A stretch of DNA of 34,523 nucleotides from Spirogloea muscicola. Its lineage: Eukaryota; Streptophyta; Zygnematophyceae; Spirogloeales; Spirogloeaceae. Shown here in pieces: positions 1-19,400 of this stretch. The DNA is taken from assembly GCA_009602725.1 (NCBI GenBank), contig WELB01000162.1:124729-159251 (forward strand), in the 5' to 3' direction. Under the pieces are notes generated by a model that saw only the letters and a list, made by a program, of their open reading frames with translations, did no database searches and was not told the DNA's origin. The translations under genes were made by a program, and so were the position numbers. Position 1 is the first letter of the stretch; the number at the start of each line of letters is the position of its first letter.

Positions 1-1350
1 GCGCCGGCCGCGTCTTCGTGGTCGCCGGCGGCGGCGGCGGCGCGGCGACGACGACGCCCGCGGCGCTGGCTGAGGTCTCCGACACGCGGCTGAGCACGGC
101 GCTGGGCAGCGGGCCTGGCGCTGTGTCCACCGTCGAGCACCTGCTGTCGGCGCTGGAGGGCCTGGGCGTCGGCAACGTGCGCATCGAGCTCCATGGCGGG
201 CCGGAGGTTCCGCTGCTCGACGGCTCGGCGCGGCTGTGGGTGGAGGCCATCGAGGCCGCGGGCGTGGTGGATGCCCGGGACGCCGGCGGCGCCACCGTGC
301 CGCAGGCCGCTCTGGCCCCAACGTCGCCCGTCGTCGTGCGGGACGGCGAGTCCTTCGTCGCCGCCTTCCCGGCGCCCGTCGCCCGCATCACCTGCGGCAT
401 CGACTTCCCGCAGGCAAGTGTCGCGCGAACGGCCGTCGGTGATGGCTGGCAGCGCATGACATGGCTGCCTGCCTGCGGAGGGCGTCGCTGATCAGCACGG
501 CAGCACGCCAGTGGCGCAGCTCCCAGTAGTCGGCCGGCAGTGGTATACGTGGAATGCCAGCGAGCCTGGGACGTATGCAACGGACATTGCCGGCGCTCGG
601 ACGTTCGGCATTGCTGAGGAGGCGAGTGCTCTGCCCACTGAGCTCCATGTAGCCCCCTCCCGGCTGTCCAACCGCTGCTTGGGGCCTCTCAATCTGGGCA
701 GTCCACCTTCTGGAGCTGAAGCCGGGAGCAAGCATGGCAGCCAATACGTGCTGGCTTGACCGTGATGGCCGCTTGCAGGTGGAGTACTTGCGTGCTGCTG
801 GCCTCATCAAAGGTGGCTCCTTGGACAACGCGCTCGTCTGCAGGTACAATAATGATGATGGCCGTCGTAGTGCCTGGCTGGGCGCCGATGGCACAGTAGA
901 TGTCATCAGCTGCTCTCATGCGGGGCCGCTCGTCCGCCGCCTGCTGCTATCGCCCTGCACAGCAAGGAGCGGGGGTGGCTCAATCCACCCCTGCGCTACG
1001 CCGAGGAGCCCGTGCGGCACAAGCTGCTGGACCTTGTGGGCGACCTTGCACTGTGTGGCGAGCACGGTCACCCAGGCTTGCCACTCGCCCACGTTGTGGC
1101 CTTCAAGGTCCCCCTCATCACTCACTACCCACTGAGCCTGCAGCACCAACACCAAAGGTCAAACGCTAACTATGTATAACAGGTCATATTCTGATTCGTG
1201 TAGCAACTTCGTCTCTCTGATGACCCAAAGCCCTGCATGTATGTGTTAAATGTACTTGTCTTCTGAAACTCTTGGGACTCTGTTGCCGTGCAGGCTGGCC
1301 ACAGCCTCCATGTGAAATTTGGCCGCGCATTGCTGGATGCATGCCGGTAA
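1..1350 (+). CDS. lpxC: LpxC, UDP-3-O-acyl-N-acetylglucosamine deacetylase (5' end outside window)
   Basis: LpxC removes the acetyl group from UDP-3-O-acyl-GlcNAc, the committed step of lipid A synthesis; plants and algae keep it as an organellar enzyme. Proposed exons are 1-413, 520-621, 779-843, 963-1107 and 1294-1350 (TAA at 1348-1350); codons start at base 3 and all joins keep frame, giving 259 visible residues. The upstream exon(s) lie outside the window. Family hallmarks are seen in order: STVEHLLSAL (zinc His), GPEVPLLDGSA, GIDFPQ/LPVVGRQW across the first intron, RTFG, GLIKGGSLDNALVC across the second and third, GWLNPPLRY, RHKLLDLVGDL (zinc His and Asp plus Lys) and AGHSLH (catalytic His) in the last exon. 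The active-site residues are therefore intact. Introns 1 and 2 appear to use GC rather than GT donors (CAG|GCAAGT at 413/414 and GAG|GCGAGT at 621/622). The identity is firm; individual splice sites are inferred. Confidence 0.93.
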
Positions 1351-1908
1351 CCGAAGCTCTTGCGGGTATGCACCATTCTGGATGCATGGCGCGGAGCCAC
1401 TCATCAACTCATGTCTGTGGAAGCAGGAGGTTGCAGGGCAACAGGTCTGCTGCTGCCAATGTCACCAGCAGAGCGGGCCAGGCGGCAAGCAGCCCAATGC
1501 GTCGTGCTGTGCAGTAGTAACTTGAGTTGCACGGCTGGCACCCTCATCTGCTCAGTTTGTGCTAGCAGCTAGACTCAGGTAGAGCTTTGTCTGAACCGCA
1601 GGACCGCAACTCAATTTGAGTGCCTGCATAATCCTCATGCTTCAAAGCTTAGATACACGCCAAGAGCAACAGTCTGGGTGTTCACAGGGCTGCCGCTGAC
1701 CATGCACGGTCAGTGGACGCAGCCCCAGTCAGTAGACGCAGCCCCAGTCATGATGGCATCAGCAGCGCCACCAGAACGGGCGCCAGTTATGGATGTGGTA
1801 CGCAGTTCTCAGACTGCAAAAACCCCTGCACCCTCCTTGCACCCACTAGTTGGGCGGGCAGAGGGAGCAGTAAAAGGGAGGCCTCGGAGCGGATGTCTGC
1901 TCGGAAGT
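1351..1908. other. Convergent 3' intergenic region
   Basis: This 558-bp stretch separates the stop codon of lpxC from the stop codon of the SBP gene on the opposite strand. It must hold both 3' UTRs and both poly(A) sites. I found no exact TGTAA on either strand in it, so the cleavage signals are unassigned. A short imperfect direct repeat, CAGTGGACGCAGCCCCAGTC followed by CAGTAGACGCAGCCCCAGTC, lies at about 1711-1750. No open frame here has recognisable similarity. Confidence 0.6.
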
Positions 1909-4900
1909 CTAAAAGGCAGACGCATCAACATCACAGTCGATACAGAACCAGCCAGGGATGTCGAGCAGCATGATGCAGAGGATGGAGCACACGGATGCCA
2001 CAGTCGCGGTGACGATTAGCAGTGGTCGCCGTCGGCCCAATGCATGCCTGGCCTGTGCTTGAGCCGCAGCATGCTTCTCCGACACCGCTTTATGACCTGG
2101 CTGCATGGTAGTGCCACCCTCCTCTACGATGATGTTGCCATCCTTGCACTGGCAGCCATTGGGAAGTGCGACGGCACCCTCAGGCAGCCGGACATTTCGT
2201 GGCCTGCTCAGTGCTACGTCAAGCAGCGCCTTGGCACTTGAAAGAAGCCCTGGGCTCCTGGCTGCGGTGCCCACTTCTGCAGCGGCGGCTGCCCTGCCAC
2301 GGGCTTCTGCAGACACCCAATTCAGCGCAGAGCTCATCTCCAGCGCCACGTAGCTTGGTTCGCTTGCACTCGACCGATCTTCCTGCCGTGCTGCACTCAC
2401 GGGCCAGCCTAGAGATCGGTTGCCTGGGTCCACAGAGGCCAGACTCGACTTCCTGTTGTCGTGGCCCCTGCCTGCAACCTGGACCTGGTGCTCGGTAGTG
2501 GAGCAGCAGTGAGGTGCGTCCATAACAAAGCCAGGAGAACCTGTGAGGCTGGGTGCACTGTCATCTGCCACCATAACCACCCTCGCTGCGCTTGCAACGG
2601 CCTGAACAATGTGGCTCCAACCTCGCTGGGTCGCATAGTCCTGCAATCGATTCACTTGCCTCTCAGGCACTGCAAATGGGCTGCCAGCCGGGTCCTGTCA
2701 ATACAGGTAGCACTGTCAGAGAAGGCCTATGAAAAGGAACAGGACTGCATGCACTAGCCAAGCTGCAACATCATGATGCAATGGTGCCCTTGCTAGCTGA
2801 CAATCAGCAGAGATGCACACAAGCAACACTACCTCATACCATACGAAAGAGGCTTGCACAGTGGCTGCTAGAGACTTACGTGGCCCGCTATAGACACACC
2901 GTGGCCCATCCGCTGCGTAAACCAAGTCGCCTTCTGAAGCACCCAGCCAAGGTCATTCAAGAAAGCAGTAGACTGCGGCGCCACAGAGAAAGGGCAGAAC
3001 ACAGCCAAGTTAGTCCTGAAATGCACAGGCCATGGGCATTTCAGATGAGCACGCTATGCGAATACGAAGACCCCACTGGTCAACTTAGCTGTGTAAGCAC
3101 ATAACATGATAGTATACTCACAACTCTTTATGTACGTGCACCTCATCCATCGTTATGCATATGTACAAGGCCTTCTCATTTATTTGTAATATTATTAGTA
3201 CGTATCTGATTGATACATAGCAGTGTCTGTACCGACGCGCAGCTGCCTCCTTACACAAGTGCATGGTCACTGCTGCTGACCTCAGCTTCCATCAAGTTCA
3301 CGGCTTCTTGGTGCAATGCTTTGCACAGGTAAAGCGGTAAGTTCCGGCGCCGCCCATCTTCCTCGGCAGCCACGCCGGCCATGGCAATGACCTGCTCAAG
3401 CTCCCGAAGCTGGGACCGTGCTTCGGAGCTGACCACCAGAAGAGGGCAGGCATTGCTCCCACCAGCTCCATTCTCGACCTGATGCTCAAGAAGCAAACAA
3501 TGTCATCCAGCTATGGGACGTACAAAGTGATTGATACTTAGTGCGCATGTTGGCAGGAAGTCGAGTGTGCCGAGGATATTTGGTATGTAGAATCTGCCAA
3601 AAGAACGAACTTCATGAACACATTTTACAGACACGACTAGCCAACAATGATGCTGTGATACTTTGTCAGCAGAGGTCTACAAGTTGTAAATAGATTAAGC
3701 AATTAAAGGACACGTCCAAACAACCATGGGGTTGGAAGCTCGCTCTTTACCTCGATGAATGCTCGACCATGTGCAGACTCTGGCGGCAGGCGAAGCCGGA
3801 GGCACTGCTTAGAGATGGCCGCATCTTCAGGCTCATCGTCCTCACCTGCCCCATTATCATCCCAGCTAGGATTCTCTTGAGCTTCTGGCAGCTCTTGAGG
3901 GCCTCCTATGTCGGCACAGACATAGCCGCCTTGATACGCGAGCAGCACCCTATTTAACAGAGAAATTGAGGCCATGGTTAGAACATATCAGCAGGTCTCC
4001 TTGGGCACACTTGTATATCAGCACATACAGTAGCTCCGAAATACTCATTCCGTAATGCTTTGCACAACCGCTGAGCTTGTCGACTTGTCCTAGTAGACTG
4101 AAACATACGTGAAGCATTTGTCGATCAGTCGTTCTTACTAACCTTGAGCCGGGGAGGGACAGGTTGTTACCCACGATTGTGACCTCCGCCTCCTCGCCTG
4201 GACAGATGGCCAGGGGCCGTATTCTTGAGATATACGGCGTGTCGTTCTGCTCCAGGGGTGTGACTGACTCAAGCTTGCCTGCAGGGGGATGAGACAAAGT
4301 ATCGTTAACAAGCTCAGTCTAAAGGTTAAGTTTCGGGTCTCAGATCTATAAGAGGAGCACCAGACGACCTGTGATCATGCTTAAGATGGAGAGCTTCTTG
4401 CAGAACTCTAAGGATGATTCGGACATGCCTCAACAAGTTGATCAGTCCACAACCTCGCGCCAATTGTGGTGACCACCAACTCAGAGATAAATCTGACCAA
4501 TGAATGCTTGCTTATTTGGCAGCATGCCCAAGACATGCGCATGCGGCCTCCTGCAACGCTTGTGCCACTACTTGTCCCTTTCATGATGCCAGCCGAGGTG
4601 CTTGACACTGCTCAGTCTGCTCAGTCCCCAAGAAGCGACGAACAAATTCTCACCACAGCATGCAGAGGCCAGGTGCCTGTCCACTTGACAGAGTATTTTC
4701 TCATGGAGCCACTGTGAAGATCCCTCAGCATCCAGCAGTCGCCGGAGACTGAATTCTATATCGTCTTGCAACTGCAAGAGGTAGCAGAGTCACAAGCACG
4801 CGGTCTTAAGTATCTGTTGACTATTCTGTGACAGTCACTTCTCTAAGCACTGAGCACTGTCACATGGATCGCAAGGCTGCCACTAACCTCATCCCACCGT

Positions 4901-7820
4901 TGCTTGGGCAGGGCAGCATAAATAGTCAGCAAGAGGCACCCCGGTCGGATGTAGCTCTCCAAGTCCTGCGGACTTGTAGCCAGCCACTCCACGATCTGCA
5001 AGCGAGAGGACAGCCAGGTCTAAATAAACGGCGTAGCGCCCGGATTTCAATAGCCCCTATCAGTCAGTAGAGGCCGAAGCTACCGCCCACCTGGTTGCGC
5101 AGATTCAAGGGAAGGTCCTCCGGGTTCTTCTCAAAAAGCTTGAGAGAGATGCGCGAGGTCCGCTGAAGCTACAGAATGGATGAAGGATCCGTTAGTTGGT
5201 GGAATCGAGGTGCTTCATGCAACAGCGGCAGCTAGACACAGTCTGAGTTTCCAGGACAACTGGGCGGCTTAGTCTGGGCCTTGAGGACCCAGCCAAGGGG
5301 TCGACTGACCGGAAAACGGTACGCCTCCGCGGGCTTCTGTGTTGCGGCAGAGTGGGCTGGGAGAGGCGGCTGCGCAGGCCAGCCTGAAGATGGTCCTGGC
5401 ACATGTTGCTGCTCTTGCGGCAGCAAGGCCCCCATCTCCAGATGCCGATCCTTGGCCTGAGAATTTCAGGAAGCAAAAGATCGTCACCTTGCCCTCTAAG
5501 ATAGTTGCGAGTTTCAAATAGCACGCCCACCATCCTCAATGGCATCCAAGTAAATGGCAAGTAGGATCTGCTCGATGATGTCGGTTGGGTCCTGGACATC
5601 GAGGGCATGCCGTTCCCCAGGGAGCGCGCTCTGACCTGAATTGCAGCAAGCAATGCACGGCCCTCAGAGGAGTGCGACAAGAGCTCTGCAATCTGGTGGT
5701 TGTCGAGCTCGGGCCGCCGTAACAGCTGGCCTAGCATCTGTCCCTGCAGGAGCCCGGCATCGGTGCTGCCGCCGGCTGGCAAGCGCAGCTCCTGGCCTTG
5801 GCTCTGACTCTGGCTGTGGCTCTGGCTCTGTGCCGGGGGGAACAGCTGCATGCCGGTGAGAGCCTGCGACGACGGCGGCGGCGGCAGGCCGTCGCCACCG
5901 CCCTTCACATACGCTGGCTGCAAGCCCGACAGCTGGCTCGGCAGGAAGATACTGCGCGGGTCCGGCTCGGCATATGGCGGCCCGTGGTCGGCGCCGGGCG
6001 GGGCATGCGGCGCGCCCATGCCATTGAGAGGCAGCTGAGCAGCACCCGGCTGTGCTGCTGGATGCCGGTATGCGCCTCCGCCCGAGGTCGACGGGCCGGC
6101 TAGCGACAGTGCCCACCCTGGGGCCGCCTCGTCGTGCAGCTGCTGCTGCTGGCTCGGTCCTCCATCAGCGGCCGAATAGCTGCAAACACCAGCAGCGGCG
6201 CATCAACTCGGGCGCAGCCGCATGGAGGCCCAAGGTAAACCTGTCCATGGCTGGACAGCGCGTCCACAGGCCAAGTCACTGTGAACCCAAGTTCACAACC
6301 AAGAGTCAAACCCGTAGGTAATGTGGGCAAGGCTCAAAGACCTGGCGGCTGCTGGGCTGTCGCCCTTCTGCTGGCTGTGGAGGTACAGCCCGAGGCGGTC
6401 TGGCACAGGCCTCGACAGTGCTCGCAGCAGCGACTCCGGCTCCAGCTTTGAGCCGCTGCCGCTGCCACTGCTGCCAGCCGCCGTTGTCGCTGCCGCTGTC
6501 ACGCCATTGTCCTTCTCGCTGGCAAAGTTCTGAGGCCGCCCGCCTGCGTCCTCCAGGTCCTTCAGGCGCACCGGCGGGAACTGAGCCTGCCCTGGGAACA
6601 GATTGAGCTGGTCACCTGCAAGGGGACACAGCATGCCACGGCTCTGCTTAGAGGTTGAGGCTGCGAGACTGCCCTTACCGGCCGTTGCACTCGGATTATA
6701 GTACTCGCTGCTGCGATGGCCGTAGCGAGCTCGTCCTTCGATTTCATATGCAGGCAGGGGTAAGCAAGGACACCTTTGCTCTGGTGGGCGCTGCTGGTCG
6801 CCCCCAGAGCCTGCCCCTTGGGCTTGCGGCGCCGCCGGTTGTGGCCGAGCAGCCGCCGACGGCAGCTGCGCTTGCCCTCGTCAAACTCCCAAAGCATGTG
6901 AAACCTGCGGCAGCAGCATCGCAACAGGCAGCGGGCCATGGTCAGGTGGGTGGGCACGGAACTTGGCGGGCGCAGGCGGGAGTAGAGAAGGGGGCATGGA
7001 GGCTGACCTGCTGCACTGCTGGCAGAAGCGCTGCACCTGGCTGACGACGAGCACCGTCGTGGCCTTGGCGTGCACCTCGCATACCTTGTGCCGCCGGTGG
7101 TACTCCTTGGCGCTGCTCAGGTCCGCATCGCAGCCGTCCACCTGGCATGCTGCACGCGTCGGCGATCCCGCCCGTACCCGCTTGCCCACAGCGGTCTCCT
7201 TGAGCCTCTTGATCTGCTCCCGCACGTGCGGGCTGTCGACACCCTCCTCTGCGGTGGGTGCGCCGTCGGCAGCCGCCGCTGCGCTCTGCTTTGGGCCTTG
7301 GCTCAGCAGCTGTGCGTCAGTGGCTGCCGCCAGGCCTTGCGGCAGCGGCTCTTCGCCATCGTTGTCCTTGGCAGCGGCAGTAGCGCCTCCACCAATTGGG
7401 CCCCTGACGGCAGCCGGGCCGGCAGCATGACCACCCACAATGCTGATGCGGGTTTGCTGCCAAGACATATTGCAGAGCATTGCGGCGTAAGCCAAATCAG
7501 CAAAGCACGGACTGCGGCATGCGCAGCAGCGAAGCTGACAAGGCAGCCCAGCTTTCGCAGGAACCACAGATCGAGCAACTGGCGGTGCGAGCCTTGCCTG
7601 CCTCCTGGCGGCCTCCTCGGCGCCACTGGCAGGCGCATGGGCGATGAACAAGGGGCTGTCCCATTCCCACGCCTGCGAGCGCCGTGCAATTGGCCACATA
7701 GCATCAGTAACCTCCTACATTTGACTTGGCATGGGGAGGAAAAAGGTGGGGACAGGGAGGGAAGAGGGTGAGTTGATGAGGTGATGGACAAGGTAGCGAG
7801 GGACGTAGGATGAAGGAGGT

Positions 7821-8007: not shown

Positions 8008-8741
8008 GGGTACGGCGAAGCAGAGCACGCCGAGGGGCCTCCAGTCGTCGGGTCGGGCCCTCCTGCTGCAACTGTGGGCTCCCGGCGCTGAAAAAGGGCG
8101 AGAGAGGAGCCTCCGAGCCGCCTGAGGCGCTGGCGCGGAGGCGCGGGACCGCCGAGCGAGCTTCCGCCCGCCCCAGCAAGACGGCGGAGGGCATCGGCTA
8201 GACGGGCGCGCCCGCCATCTGCCCCGGTGTCGCTGCGACGAGGAACCAGCGGCCGAGGCCACCGCCGACGCCGCCGCCGCCGTCAGCGGTCGCCGCCGCG
8301 CCGCGCCCACAGGGGGGCGCTTGAGTGGAGGCGAGGGGAGGGAGGTTGAGAGGAATTGGGCGCAGCCGCATCGCCTACAAATTATGAATGAGGTTACCAG
8401 ACGCCTCGCCCGCGGAGGGAGGGAGGGAGGACCGCTGGCGGCGCGCCCCGCCCGCGGGCGGGGCCGCGGCCTCGGGGGAGGGCGTTTTGAAAAGCGTGCG
8501 CCCGGCGAGGGGGCCGCGGGCTTGACGGGGCCGGCGCCCCGCTACGCCCCGCTAGCTCCCCGACAGGCGGTCATCACGCCAAGCCTGCGGACGGTGGACG
8601 AAAAATCCGATGAACATAGATATCCCTATGTTCTCATGTTACATTCCATCCAGCACTCGACATACATTGCTGTTGGTTCGAAGATCCGGGACTGCTGTGA
8701 CCATTCAAAGTCTATGGAGGTGCCTTGTCTTTGGCACTATG
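8008..8741. promoter_or_regulatory. Upstream region of the SBP gene
   Basis: This interval precedes the proposed SBP start and should hold its promoter and 5' UTR. It is very GC-rich (runs of CG, and GGGAGGGAGGGAGG at about 8417), with a lone AT-rich patch at about 8376-8392 (CTACAAATTATGAATGAGG). I cannot identify a TATA box or a specific factor site with confidence. The open frames across it are by-products of GC content. Confidence 0.35.
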
Positions 8742-8937
8742 GCTCTGGCCAGGGGACCCGCTTCCAGGAACCCAGTCTCTCTGACCTGAGGCTGCTTAGC
8801 AGGGGTTACTTGAGTGCTTCGTAGCTTCTTTTTGTGCTTGTTGTTCTTCGTACTTCCCCTGGCCCCTTCTCGTCCTTTGTTCATTCTTTTTTGAGCTGGC
8901 TTTTTCCAGCCCCTATCCTCAATGGGCGAGCCCTTCA
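8742..8937 (+). mobile_element. 5'-truncated non-LTR remnant with C-terminal motif and hairpin tail
   Basis: Bases 8780-8809 encode SDLRLLSRGY, the C-terminal motif shared by the elements of this window; the following stop is changed to TTG. Downstream are a short 3' UTR and a hairpin tail with the stem GAGCTGG/CCAGCCC at 8893-8913, then ATGGGCGAGCCC. Bases 8742-8810 match the minus strand of 18962-19118. They lack the 75-bp insert found there, so this copy shows the empty site. Bases 8801-8937 match 9815-9955 almost base for base, including the GTGCTTGTTGTTCTTCGTAC block. Confidence 0.82.
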
Positions 8938-8995
8938 TTCACGCACTATGTGACTTCAGCGCCTATACGGCCATGGTCTAGGTCTCATGACAAGA

Positions 8996-14504: not shown

Positions 14505-15977
14505 TCACAGGGCGTAGTGGCCGCTGTTCTTGTTCCGGAGCTGCAGCTGCAGGAAGCGGACGTACTCGATCGCCTGGTCCAGCATTGTGGCAGTGTCGAG
14601 CCGGTTGCCGTTGGGCACAAGTGTCTGCAGCGTGCGCAGCTTGCGGCTGATGCGCTCGCGACGGGCGCGCGCCGCCAGCGACTGGGGATCCGTGGCGGTG
14701 CCTCGCTTCTGCCGCGGCTTCGCTGGCTCCAGCACGGGCGACATCTTGGTGCCATCGGCGCCGACAGCAGGTGCAGGTGGAGACTCGCCCTCGTTGTCAC
14801 CCTCGTTGTCGTTCTCATTGTCGTTCTCATCCTCCTCGAAGGGGCTGGCCAGGGCTGCAGCTTCCACATCAGCAGCGGGCGACGCCGGCGAGAGGGGCTC
14901 AAACTTGGCCGCAGGCATGGCCTCCAACTTTGCTGCTGCAGGGAGTGCCGCTGCTGCAAGGGCCACGGCTGCCGTGGGTTGTGCTTGCTCCGCGCAGACG
15001 CGCTTGGCTGGGCGGGGGCAACTGGCAGACGGTGCAGAAGAATCCTCCTGGGAGGAGTTCTCAGGCTGCCATGCAGCTTCGCGGCGGACCCGCTTGCCAG
15101 ACGACCCCGAGCTCGCCGATGTGCTGACCTCGTTGATCTCCGGCAGCAGGAAGAAGCGGGGGGGCGCCCAGTCGCCAACGCCGCCGCAGCCGGGCTGGTC
15201 GAGGTTGGCGAGCAGCGACGAGTCAGGGAGGCCTGCGTCGTCCATGCACAGGAGGGCGTCGCACCAGTTCTCGGGCTCGCCGCCAAGCGAGAACTCCGCG
15301 AGCGGATCGAGGTGATGGGACATCTGCGGCGCTGGCGGCGCTGGCGCGACGGCGGCGGAGACGGGCGACGGCGTCGCGGGTGCGGCGATGGCCGTCGTGG
15401 CCGGCTCGGCCGACTCCTCGCACTGCTCCGCCAGCAGCAGGCGGCTGGAGTCGCCGCCGCCGAGCATGGCCAGGGCTTGGCTTGCCGGGCTGGCCCGCAG
15501 CCGCTCCTGCTGCTGCAGCAGCTGCAACTTCCACAGCAGCTCGTTGGAGACGCCGCCGGGCAGGACGCTGGTCGGGCTGCCGCCGCCGCCGGCGCCGCAG
15601 CCGCCACCGCCGCCGAACATGGCCTGCGCCTGCTGGAGGTGCTGCAGCTGCTGCTGCTGCTGGATCTGCTGCTGCTGCTGGATCTGCTGCTGCTGCTGCT
15701 GTTGGGCGGCGGCCTGGACGAGCAGGGCGGGCGGCATCTGCGGCGCGTGGGGCTGCTGGAGGGCCAGCATCTGGGCCAGCTCCGCGTGGCCGAAGCCCGG
15801 CGGCGGCGGCGGCGGCGTAGCGGCGGGCTGCTGGGGCTGGCGGGCGCGGAGCTGGCGCAGGAGCGAGAGCGCGGCGGCCTGCTGCAGCAGCGGCTGCGGG
15901 AGGCCGTTGAGGCCGGCCAGCGCGCCGGGGAGCTGCTGGGCGATCACGCCGGCCACGAGCTGCTCCATGGCGGACAT
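14505..15977 (-). CDS. bHLH transcription factor, group VIII/RSL-like, intronless
   Basis: A single exon of 490 codons. The start at 15977 ([11 protein letters not shown]) is chosen because upstream sequence is GC-driven open frame without a convincing ATG. The C-terminal bHLH (about residues 428-481) reads [34 protein letters not shown] and [10 protein letters not shown], closest to land-plant group VIII (RSL/HEC) proteins. In the basic region the E-box residues His5 and Glu9 are Gln and Ala, while Arg10, Arg12 and Arg13 remain, so canonical E-box binding is doubtful. The middle is low complexity: poly-Gln (CTG runs on the + strand, 15648-15705), Pro- and Ala-rich, with an acidic DEN-rich block just before the bHLH. 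It probably dimerises and acts in the nucleus. Its target genes cannot be told from the sequence. Confidence 0.9.
15648..15705 (-). repeat. Interrupted CAG (poly-Gln) repeat in the bHLH gene
   Basis: Runs of CTG on the + strand, broken by GAT, encode three blocks of glutamines separated by isoleucine or leucine in the bHLH protein. Such tracts are prone to length change between strains. Confidence 0.95.
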
Positions 15978-17137
15978 GGCGGCCCGGGGGGAAGGAGGGG
16001 GGTGTGGGCGCAAGAGTGGCAGACTTGAGGCGCGGGGTCGAGGGGTTTTGAGCTCCGAGGCGGGGGCGGGGGGGGGAGTTCCGGGCGCCGGGGCTGGCGG
16101 GCAGGGCGTGCGGGGCGGCAGTGGTTGGAGCTGCCGGAGCTGCCCCCCCCCCCCGGCACCGGTTGCACGCCCCCGCTGAGCGCCTCGCCCGACGGCCCCC
16201 TCCCGCGGCGTCTCCCCCTCCCCTCTCGGGCGCAGGGCCCAGATCGTGGCGTGTCTCGTGGGCGGCACCAGCACCTCGCCGCGGACGGGCAGAAGCCTGG
16301 GCTCCCCCCTCCCCGCCGGGGCCCCCGGGTCCGGGACGTCTCCTGCAGGCCCTGGCCGCAGCGGCGCTGGCGTCGTGTACCTCCCAGGTACACTCCGGCG
16401 CCACCCGGGCGCTGTCGCAGCCTGCCGCCCAGGTGAGCTCTGCGGAGGCCAGGGGGCGCCCGCGCCCCGACTGCACGACCCGCCCTGGGCGGCCAGCCTG
16501 GCGCCCGGTAGAGCGGCTGGGGGGGGGGGGGGTTGCCCTGGGCGAAGCGGTCGGAACGAGCGGACTGCCAGTATCATCGTCAGAGCGGGTTGGCTAATCG
16601 TGGGGGGAGATCCCCAATGTTCGCAGCCCCCGATGCGCGCCAAGCGGCGGCCCGGCCCCGCGGCCTAAGCGGCTCGGCTTCCACCATATCTGCACCCTTC
16701 TGGTGGAAGCGCCGCGCTCGCCGCGGCGGTGGGTTTCATCGTCAAGCGGAAAGCCGCTTCCGCCGACGGCTCCCCGAGGCGGTTCGCCCCGTCGCCCCCC
16801 GCGGTACGCTCTCGTCGCCACCCGGTCGCCGGGATTTGCAGTCCGATACGAGGCTCGCGCGCTCGCCCCCAGCAACAACAGTTACCCGCTCGTGCGACGA
16901 TCTTTTCGGGCGGGGCCCACGAACCGCCGCTGCGGGGGCCGCGGGGCCGGGGGCGTGCCCGCATCCCCCGCCGCTACTCACGCCACTTGATGCGGGAGGT
17001 TGGCCGGCACCCCGGGGCTGGCCCGTGCGGCACGCCGCCCGTCGCGACCGCTCGTGCCCCGGCCGCCGTCCGCCCCGCTGTGGAAGACGAAGCAGCTCTT
17101 GGCCTGTGGAAAGCCAGCCCGAGAGAGAGAGTCACTT
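15978..17137. promoter_or_regulatory. Upstream region of the bHLH gene; GC island
   Basis: It should hold the bHLH promoter. It contains homopolymer runs (C at 16143-16152, G at about 16518-16532) and a very GC-rich, probably unmethylated-type island at about 16640-17090. GTGGAAGCG with the nearby complementary TTCCACC (about 16680-16710) can pair. No TATA-like element or gene was identified. Confidence 0.4.
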
Positions 17138-18530: not shown

Positions 18531-18889
18531 CCAGAGAAAGCGCTAAACGAAGACCAACAGTGGCCGCTGCGCGCCCCTTCAGCTTCGCGCCGCGCCGAAC
18601 GGCGGCTGTTGCGGGCGCCCAACCCGCCGCCCGCCGCGACGTCCAGCCCCGAGATCCCCGTATCTGCCGCTTGCGCATGACGCCGCGACCCCCCGTTCGT
18701 GCGCACCTGCCCCTGCACCTACTCATCCCCGCCTTCGCCTTTGAACTTGGCAACTCGGGCCCTCAATGATTCACTGCACTCTCCATTTCCTCCTCCCGGC
18801 TGGCATTCTCGTCAGCGCCGCGTTTCTCTGGCCCACATTTCATCAAATCAAAGAGCTGGGTACGCTCCTAGATCTTCGCCTTCCGCTTC

Positions 18890-19118
18890 CGTAGGAAGGG
18901 CTCGCCCATTGAGGTCATGGGCTGGGAAAAGCCAGCAGGAAAAGCCAGTAGAATGCACACTGTAACCCCTGCTAAGCAGCCGCAGGTCAGAGAAACTTGG
19001 CTCCTGGAAGAGAAGTGGCTCTCCCAGTGGGGGCAAGGGCTGTGAGAAGCCAGCCCGAAAAGAATTGACAAAAGTTCCCAAAATGACTTGGCTCCTGGAA
19101 GTGGGTCCCCTGGCCAGA
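18890..19118 (-). mobile_element. Non-LTR remnant interrupted by a 75-bp tail insertion
   Basis: On the minus strand SDLRLLSRGY is encoded at 18962-18991, as in the 8.8-kb copy. A further tail (GGCTTTTCCCAGCCC, then GGGCGAGCCCTTCC) lies at 18890-18955. The upstream part of the remnant is split by the insertion at 19011-19085. Without it, the sequence matches 8742-8810. Confidence 0.85.
19011..19085 (-). mobile_element. 75-bp hairpin-tail insertion with 16-bp target duplication
   Basis: ACTTGGCTCCTGGAAG occurs exactly at 18995-19010 and again at 19086-19101. The 75 bases between form one tail unit, minus strand, with stem GGGCTGGCTTCTCACAGCCC (19037-19056). The paralogous site at 8761-8776 has one copy of the target (three differences) and no insert. 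Long, exact flanking duplication plus an empty site shows transposition. The duplication length suggests target-primed reverse transcription. Confidence 0.93.
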
Positions 19119-19136
19119 GCCAGAGATCTTCGGCTT

Positions 19137-19400
19137 CCGTGGCGGCGCTCCGGCTCGCCCGAGTTAGCCTGTCGGGTTTTGATGTGCTCACCCGCGGGTA
19201 CTAACGTCACACTGTTACCTTAGCCACCTAAGCGGGCTTTGATTCATGTAGCACGACTTTCTGCAATAGCTTTTGCCTGAATAGTGTATAGGCTTTACTT
19301 GGCCAATCTCTCATTTCATGCCGCGCGCCTTCTCTTTTAAACAGGCCACTGGCATCCGTGGCGGTGCTCCAACTTTCCAAGTTAGCCTGTCGAAACGTGC
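19137..19400 (+). mobile_element. Coding-end fragments of remnant A type
   Basis: Bases 19137-19204 match the remnant A coding end and finish with SGFDVLTRGY-stop (19172-19204, TAA). A second fragment at about 19350-19397 repeats GCATCCGTGGCGGTGCTCC..TTCCAAGTTAGCCTGTCG and stops before the motif. Both have lost most of the tail. Confidence 0.72.

Follow-up and report, generated by a model that had tools for sequence, protein, structure and literature searches.

Copies of the human LINE L1 that are truncated at the 5′ end share a fixed 3′ end, begin at random internal positions, and are flanked by target-site duplications of varying length. In the sections of the L1 study used here, the duplications of full-length copies peak at 14–16 bp, and 5′-truncated copies more commonly have short duplications, show 5′ microhomology, and carry extra 5′ nucleotides in 14.6% of cases (PMC2912911). 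According to the portion of a study of Chlamydomonas SINEs on which we draw, these elements have 3′ tails in common with LINEs (PMC3747384). We compared with these systems a 75-bp insertion in a stretch of 34,523 nucleotides (hereafter the window) from contig WELB01000162.1 of the streptophyte alga Spirogloea muscicola.

The LINE family that very probably supplied the insertion, here termed family A, resembles 5′-truncated human L1 in its fixed 3′ end, random 5′ truncation, and variable duplications. Unlike human L1, family A lacks a 3′ poly(A) tail and has a putatively hairpin-forming tail ending in CTTCT, and its detected duplications are mostly 7–10 bp long. Its insertion sites are dispersed, unlike those of R2-type LINEs, which lie in one conserved gene, and no separate 5′ head was seen on its short copies, in contrast with the Chlamydomonas SINEs. 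The RandI/Dualen elements are likewise green-algal LINEs, and with these the comparison is by description only. A literature search combining non-LTR retrotransposons, restriction-like endonuclease, and green algae found no match, which is no proof of absence in print.

Elsewhere in the window, two minus-strand open frames (6881–7699 and 14505–16643), in which an SBP domain was matched at E 2e-18 and a helix-loop-helix domain at E 1.6e-07, are likely, from these domain matches, to be transcription-factor genes. To our knowledge, SBP proteins occur solely in plants and green algae, so that the SBP match points to the green lineage.

The insertion and its uninterrupted counterparts

The 16-mer ACTTGGCTCCTGGAAG occurs exactly at 18995–19010 and again at 19086–19101, with 75 bp (19011–19085) between the two copies; there is no third copy in the window and none on the other strand. 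Since the adjoining base differs between the copies at both ends, the duplication is exactly 16 bp long, and the exact flanking described in the initial annotation is confirmed. The features of the locus and of its counterparts in the window are as follows.

18895 to 18936, minus strand: 3′ tail of the filled family B copy, 90% identical over 42 nt to the B copy L103
18955 to 19010, minus strand: host family B, part 3′ of the insertion (ORF end and start of the 3′UTR), 89% identical over 56 nt to L103
18995 to 19010, no strand assigned: target-site duplication on the side of the element's 3′ end, reading ACTTGGCTCCTGGAAG on the plus strand
19011 to 19085, minus strand: 75-bp inserted unit, very probably the 5′-truncated 3′ end of LINE family A, subtype A2, with the element's 3′ end at 19011 and its 5′ end at 19085
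19037 to 19056, minus strand: putative hairpin-forming tail motif GGGCTGGCTTCTCACAGCCC within the unit (GGCTGG..CAGCC pattern at 19038–19055)
19086 to 19101, no strand assigned: target-site duplication on the side of the element's truncated 5′ end; the target is single-copy in 528 exact uninterrupted host sites
19085 to 19125, minus strand: host family B, part 5′ of the insertion (C-terminal coding end, the coding sense taken from copies L102–L106), 93% identical over 41 nt to L103
8737 to 8936, plus strand: paralogous family B copy without the insertion, 94% identical over 209 columns to L103
18138 to 18218, minus strand: second family A tail in the window, 81 bp aligned at 96% identity

Judged from its sequence, the host belongs to a second LINE family, termed B and related to family A, of which it forms the C-terminal coding end. 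In copies L102–L106 the coding end runs to RALAAASGSGQGTRFQEPSLSDLRLLSRGY followed by a stop, and the family B 3′UTR after the ORF ends in CAATGGGCGAGCCCTTC. The segment 19086–19101 is at once host B sequence and duplication. The filled B copy, read on the minus strand from 19125 down to 18895, is itself truncated, and the middle of its 3′UTR is missing or replaced. It seems to be flanked by a duplication of its own, reading ACGGAAGCCGAAGATCT on the 5′ side and ACGGAAGCGGAAGGCGAAGATCT on the 3′ side (by eye; 18860–18894 and 19122–19145). The empty B copy has GCACTATG at either side, the 3′ occurrence being preceded by a few additional bases (by eye; 8727–8738 and 8937–8955), and this is probably its own short target duplication.

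The paralogue at 8737–8936 lacks the 75 bp, and the empty site reported from the same window is therefore genuine; its target, at 8761–8776, reads ACTGGGTTCCTGGAAG and differs from the 16-mer at two positions. On the other strand, 8737–8809 shares 92% identity with the joined flanks of the filled copy over a length of 73 bp. Across the 153-Mb genome the uninterrupted host site GGACCCNCTTCCAGGANCCNAGNNTCTCTGACCTG has 528 exact matches (252 + 276), and its reversed control has none. The exact form present in the window, CTTCCAGGAGCCAAGT, occurs in 4 of the 100 uninterrupted sites listed out of these 528 (C2:806304, C5:115895, C13:1032663, and C15:149281). All the empty sites compared are paralogues within one genome. 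Because the 16-mer belongs once to the host repeat and not to the inserted one, the duplication is not part of the inserted repeat's consensus, a doubt that the initial annotation had itself raised.

These counts bear on whether there was an insertion at all. Were the filled form the older one, the 75 bp would have been lost elsewhere by recombination between the 16-bp repeats, or a local rearrangement would have made the filled copy. That rearrangements or template jumps happen is shown by family A tails, which often form tandems joined at CTTCT. Against such an origin, the 528 uninterrupted sites compare with 2 exact matches (the window and C47) to a strict pattern in which an A tail is joined to this target, the latter figure being a lower bound. 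The uninterrupted host also reads through as the end of an ORF in L102–L106, and the insert edge at 19011 coincides with the 3′ edge of family A at unrelated loci. We consider this alternative extremely unlikely. The 75 bp are a genuine insertion, and reverse transcription almost certainly produced it.

Family A and its relatives

On the minus strand, the inserted 75 bp read as the 3′ end of family A, ending in CCCCCANTGGGAGAGCCACTTCT. The exact 3′-end pattern of this family has 1583 matches in the genome (775 + 808), and its control has none. The unit is 98% identical over 63 nt to L020, the reference copy of subtype A1, and 96% identical over 67 nt to L009, the reference copy of A2, which is the closest subtype; it is 94% identical over 67 nt to the second A tail of the window. 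Its first 8 nt fit the CATTTGG of A2 if a 7-nt deletion is allowed (by eye). We had considered these foreign-looking 5′ bases as untemplated filler and dropped the idea in favor of the better-fitting deletion.

An alignment of fifteen loci (L011–L025) anchored at the 3′ end breaks up at 5′ positions from about 192 to beyond 720 bp, two of the copies near 192 bp being cut off by runs of N. Three of these loci (L016, L020, and L022) continue upstream into an ORF that ends in SLSDVRLLTRNY followed by a stop, and this ORF end is homologous to that of family B. The initial annotation had treated the 75 bp as a mobile unit; they are instead the terminus of a LINE whose other copies extend more than 720 bp, into the ORF.

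A reverse transcriptase domain (RVT_1) is found in the A copy L059 (E 2.6e-17) and in L060 (E 2.4e-13), a member of a sister family that is 67% identical to L059 over the shared part. L060 contains an uninterrupted LINE ORF (226–4407; 1393 aa from stop to stop) in which, by reading, two C2H2-like fingers precede the reverse transcriptase and a Cys/His motif follows it. Further related frames of more than 1000 aa exist and, together with the long ORF of L060, point to possible recent activity of the sister family. A 2854-aa open frame on C10 was set aside as the product of a run of N (3592 bases in the stretch examined).

The layout of L060 resembles that of Utopia elements as given in the part of PMC4640811 consulted. 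A two-sequence profile searched against the PDB matched R2 proteins alone at E values up to 1 (two proteins, E 0.0011 and 0.0013), over the reverse transcriptase. The spacing of the Cys/His motif in L060 and L059, CX1CX12HX3C, differs from the CX2-3CX7-8HX4C given in the portion of PMC5678591 used here. The C-terminus contains, by eye, an R-x-D-L-V-A..D motif, a candidate motif of a restriction-like endonuclease (a PD-(D/E)XK variant); Pfam gave no match in the C-terminal 383 aa. Since the Cys/His spacing differs and no endonuclease domain was confirmed, our reading of these sequences leaves family A and its sister unassigned to the LINEs with a restriction-like endonuclease (Utopia, NeSL, and R2). 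In a PDB search with a 309-aa C-terminus, three TAL-effector chains were matched (E 1.7e-12 to 2.7e-11). This likeness is probably one of composition, since the full homologous ORF of L060 gave no match at 0.001 and the two-sequence profile matched R2 chains only.

The tail of the unit contains the pattern GGCTGG..CAGCC, which has 24 matches in the window against 1.35 expected, a number attained in none of 100 shuffles (both strands counted, palindromic matches twice). Most of the matches lie between 9083 and 22657, and such tails are common to several related LINE families in the window. The motif would form a hairpin, and a role for tail hairpins in recognition by the enzyme is proposed by analogy with other LINEs, as presented in the part of PMC3747384 used here.

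Lengths and flanks of family A copies

Copy lengths were determined for a sample of 40 copies with an intact 3′ end, those that come first by contig order among the 100 places listed out of 1583; degraded copies fall outside it, as the search pattern needs that end. Measured against the two reference copies (A1 and A2), the 40 copies are 27–718 bp long, where the stretches of 750 bases bound the upper end and the lengths may be underestimates at places where the references break. Fifteen copies are no longer than 100 bp and 11 no longer than 75 bp, and the suggestion that the window insertion is among the shortest retroposed units known is not supported; it is not the shortest in this genome. 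A cluster at 72–79 bp in our first length table is partly an artifact of the A1 reference, which breaks where A2 differs, and it shrinks when both references are used. At other points of the host region in family B, A tails of 73 bp (L003) and 89 bp (L007) interrupt B copies, with B sequence on both sides, so that the window insertion is one of at least three such cases.

The frequency of short copies could be explained by a discrete mobile unit of about 70–90 nt, SINE-like and consisting of the tail, which would have a short transcript of its own for the LINE enzyme to copy. Consistent with this, CCTTGGAACC stands at the start of both L003 and L075. The 5′ ends of the 40 copies nonetheless scatter, with three start positions used twice (A1 390, A1 489, and A2 335) and none more often. 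An own 5′ end for the short unit, as L003 and L075 might suggest, was dropped as a candidate, since CTTGGAACCTNGTCAATTCTTTTCGG is matched exactly at 4 places in the genome, of which three are the other variant; no SINE-like 5′ end common to short copies was found in the 40 copies or with this genome pattern. The window unit also aligns with the longer subtype A2 to its end, save for the 7-nt deletion (by eye), and tRNA and Rfam searches of the window found nothing. With scattered 5′ ends and no amplified short class that has its own 5′ end, mobility of the 75-bp unit in its own right is unsupported, and we regard such a unit as very unlikely. It would be just as improbable that a hairpin RNA made up of the 3′-terminal 70–100 nt serves as a stable short template copied apart from the full-length RNA. 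If it did, many of the short copies would stem from a headless LINE parasite of under 100 nt and not from aborted copying.

Flanking duplications were measured by comparing the beginning of the 3′ flank with the 36 bases surrounding the 5′ breakpoint and taking the longest exact match. Excluding L078 and L100, which lie beside runs of N, left 38 usable copies; the start of L066, below the alignment cut-off, was set by hand, and within each of the pairs L091/L092 and L093/L094 the stretches overlap, so that the two copies do not count as fully independent. Over the 38 copies the matches sum to 223, whereas the highest sum in 10,000 shuffles of the flanks among copies is 219. Matches of at least 8 bp are found in 10 of the 38 copies and in 24 of 1406 swapped pairs, and matches of at least 9 bp in 8 and 12, respectively. 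For the 15 copies of up to 100 bp the sum is 80, attained in 9 of 10,000 shuffles. An earlier version with one reference and a wider region, which left out L078, L085, L096, and L100, gave a sum of 232 for 36 copies against a maximum of 216 in 5000 shuffles. The tabulation of flanks that the initial annotation had called for thus yields duplications beyond those of shuffled flanks within the 40 copies sampled, while most single copies have none distinguishable from chance.

Individual copies illustrate this range. In L070, 48 bp long, a 9-bp flanking match is equaled by 1 of 35 swapped flanks. The 10-bp match of L083, whose 3′ flank is another A copy, is possibly family sequence. The longest match among the 38 is 14 bp, so the 16 bp of the window lie at the long end of the range; 16 bp is attained by 2 of the 1406 swapped pairs. 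None of the 3′ flanks of the 38 other copies matches the 5′ side of the window copy over 16 bp, as the window copy's own 3′ flank does. Eight of the 10 matches of at least 8 bp start with CTTC, TCTT, or TCTG, an apparent preference that is partly built in, as a match was allowed to start inside the element's terminal TTCT.

Truncated A tails joined head to tail at CTTCT were seen at L021, L027, L030, L035, L041, L051, L052, L083, and L091/L092, with internal starts recurring at CTTC (reference positions 611 and 684). From their arrangement these tandems look like the outcome of template jumping or of repeated insertion at the 3′ end of a previous copy. Separately, L030/L032 and L012/L013 present the same copies with the same flanks on different contigs, and would be segmental duplicates or haplotypes left unmerged in the assembly.

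A short unit with a direct repeat on either side is also what a miniature DNA transposon (MITE-like) would leave. The ends of the unit are, by reading, not inverted repeats of each other, however; only one of the two ends is fixed, the lengths of the flanking matches vary between copies, and the longer copies encode reverse transcriptase rather than transposase. A MITE-like insertion is hardly conceivable here.

A probable nested, 5′-truncated LINE copy

Family A shows the hallmarks of a LINE: a fixed 3′ end, scattered 5′ truncation, duplications of variable length, reverse transcriptase in its longer copies, and a target that is single-copy when empty. The fixed 3′ end, the scattered 5′ ends, the variable duplications, and the relatives that encode reverse transcriptase argue for target-primed reverse transcription that stopped prematurely. 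We therefore consider it very probable that the 75-bp unit is a severely 5′-truncated copy of family A, inserted by this route into the C-terminal coding end of a family B copy, both on the minus strand. The retroposition that the initial annotation had read from the 16-bp duplication agrees with the fixed 3′ end, scattered 5′ ends, and variable duplication lengths of the family.

In the proposed mechanism, the LINE enzyme would nick the target at CTTC/GAAG, and the exposed GAAG end, pairing with the terminal CUUCU of the RNA, would prime copying from the RNA 3′ end (..CACUUCU). Copying would halt about 75 nt in, the other strand would be cut 16 bp away, and the 5′ end would be joined there, possibly over a GT microhomology. 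The 7-nt internal deletion relative to subtype A2 would account for the 8 odd bases at the 5′ end.

We regard the window insertion as an ordinary event rather than a tiny mobile unit in its own right. Tails of 27–100 bp are routine debris of LINE activity in this genome, which settles the claim of an exceptionally small unit. The contrast between the filled copy and hundreds of paralogous uninterrupted sites makes the locus an instructive example of nested LINE truncation. The LINE families that share such tails could serve the study of how an algal LINE recognizes the 3′ end of its RNA and chooses CTTC-like targets.
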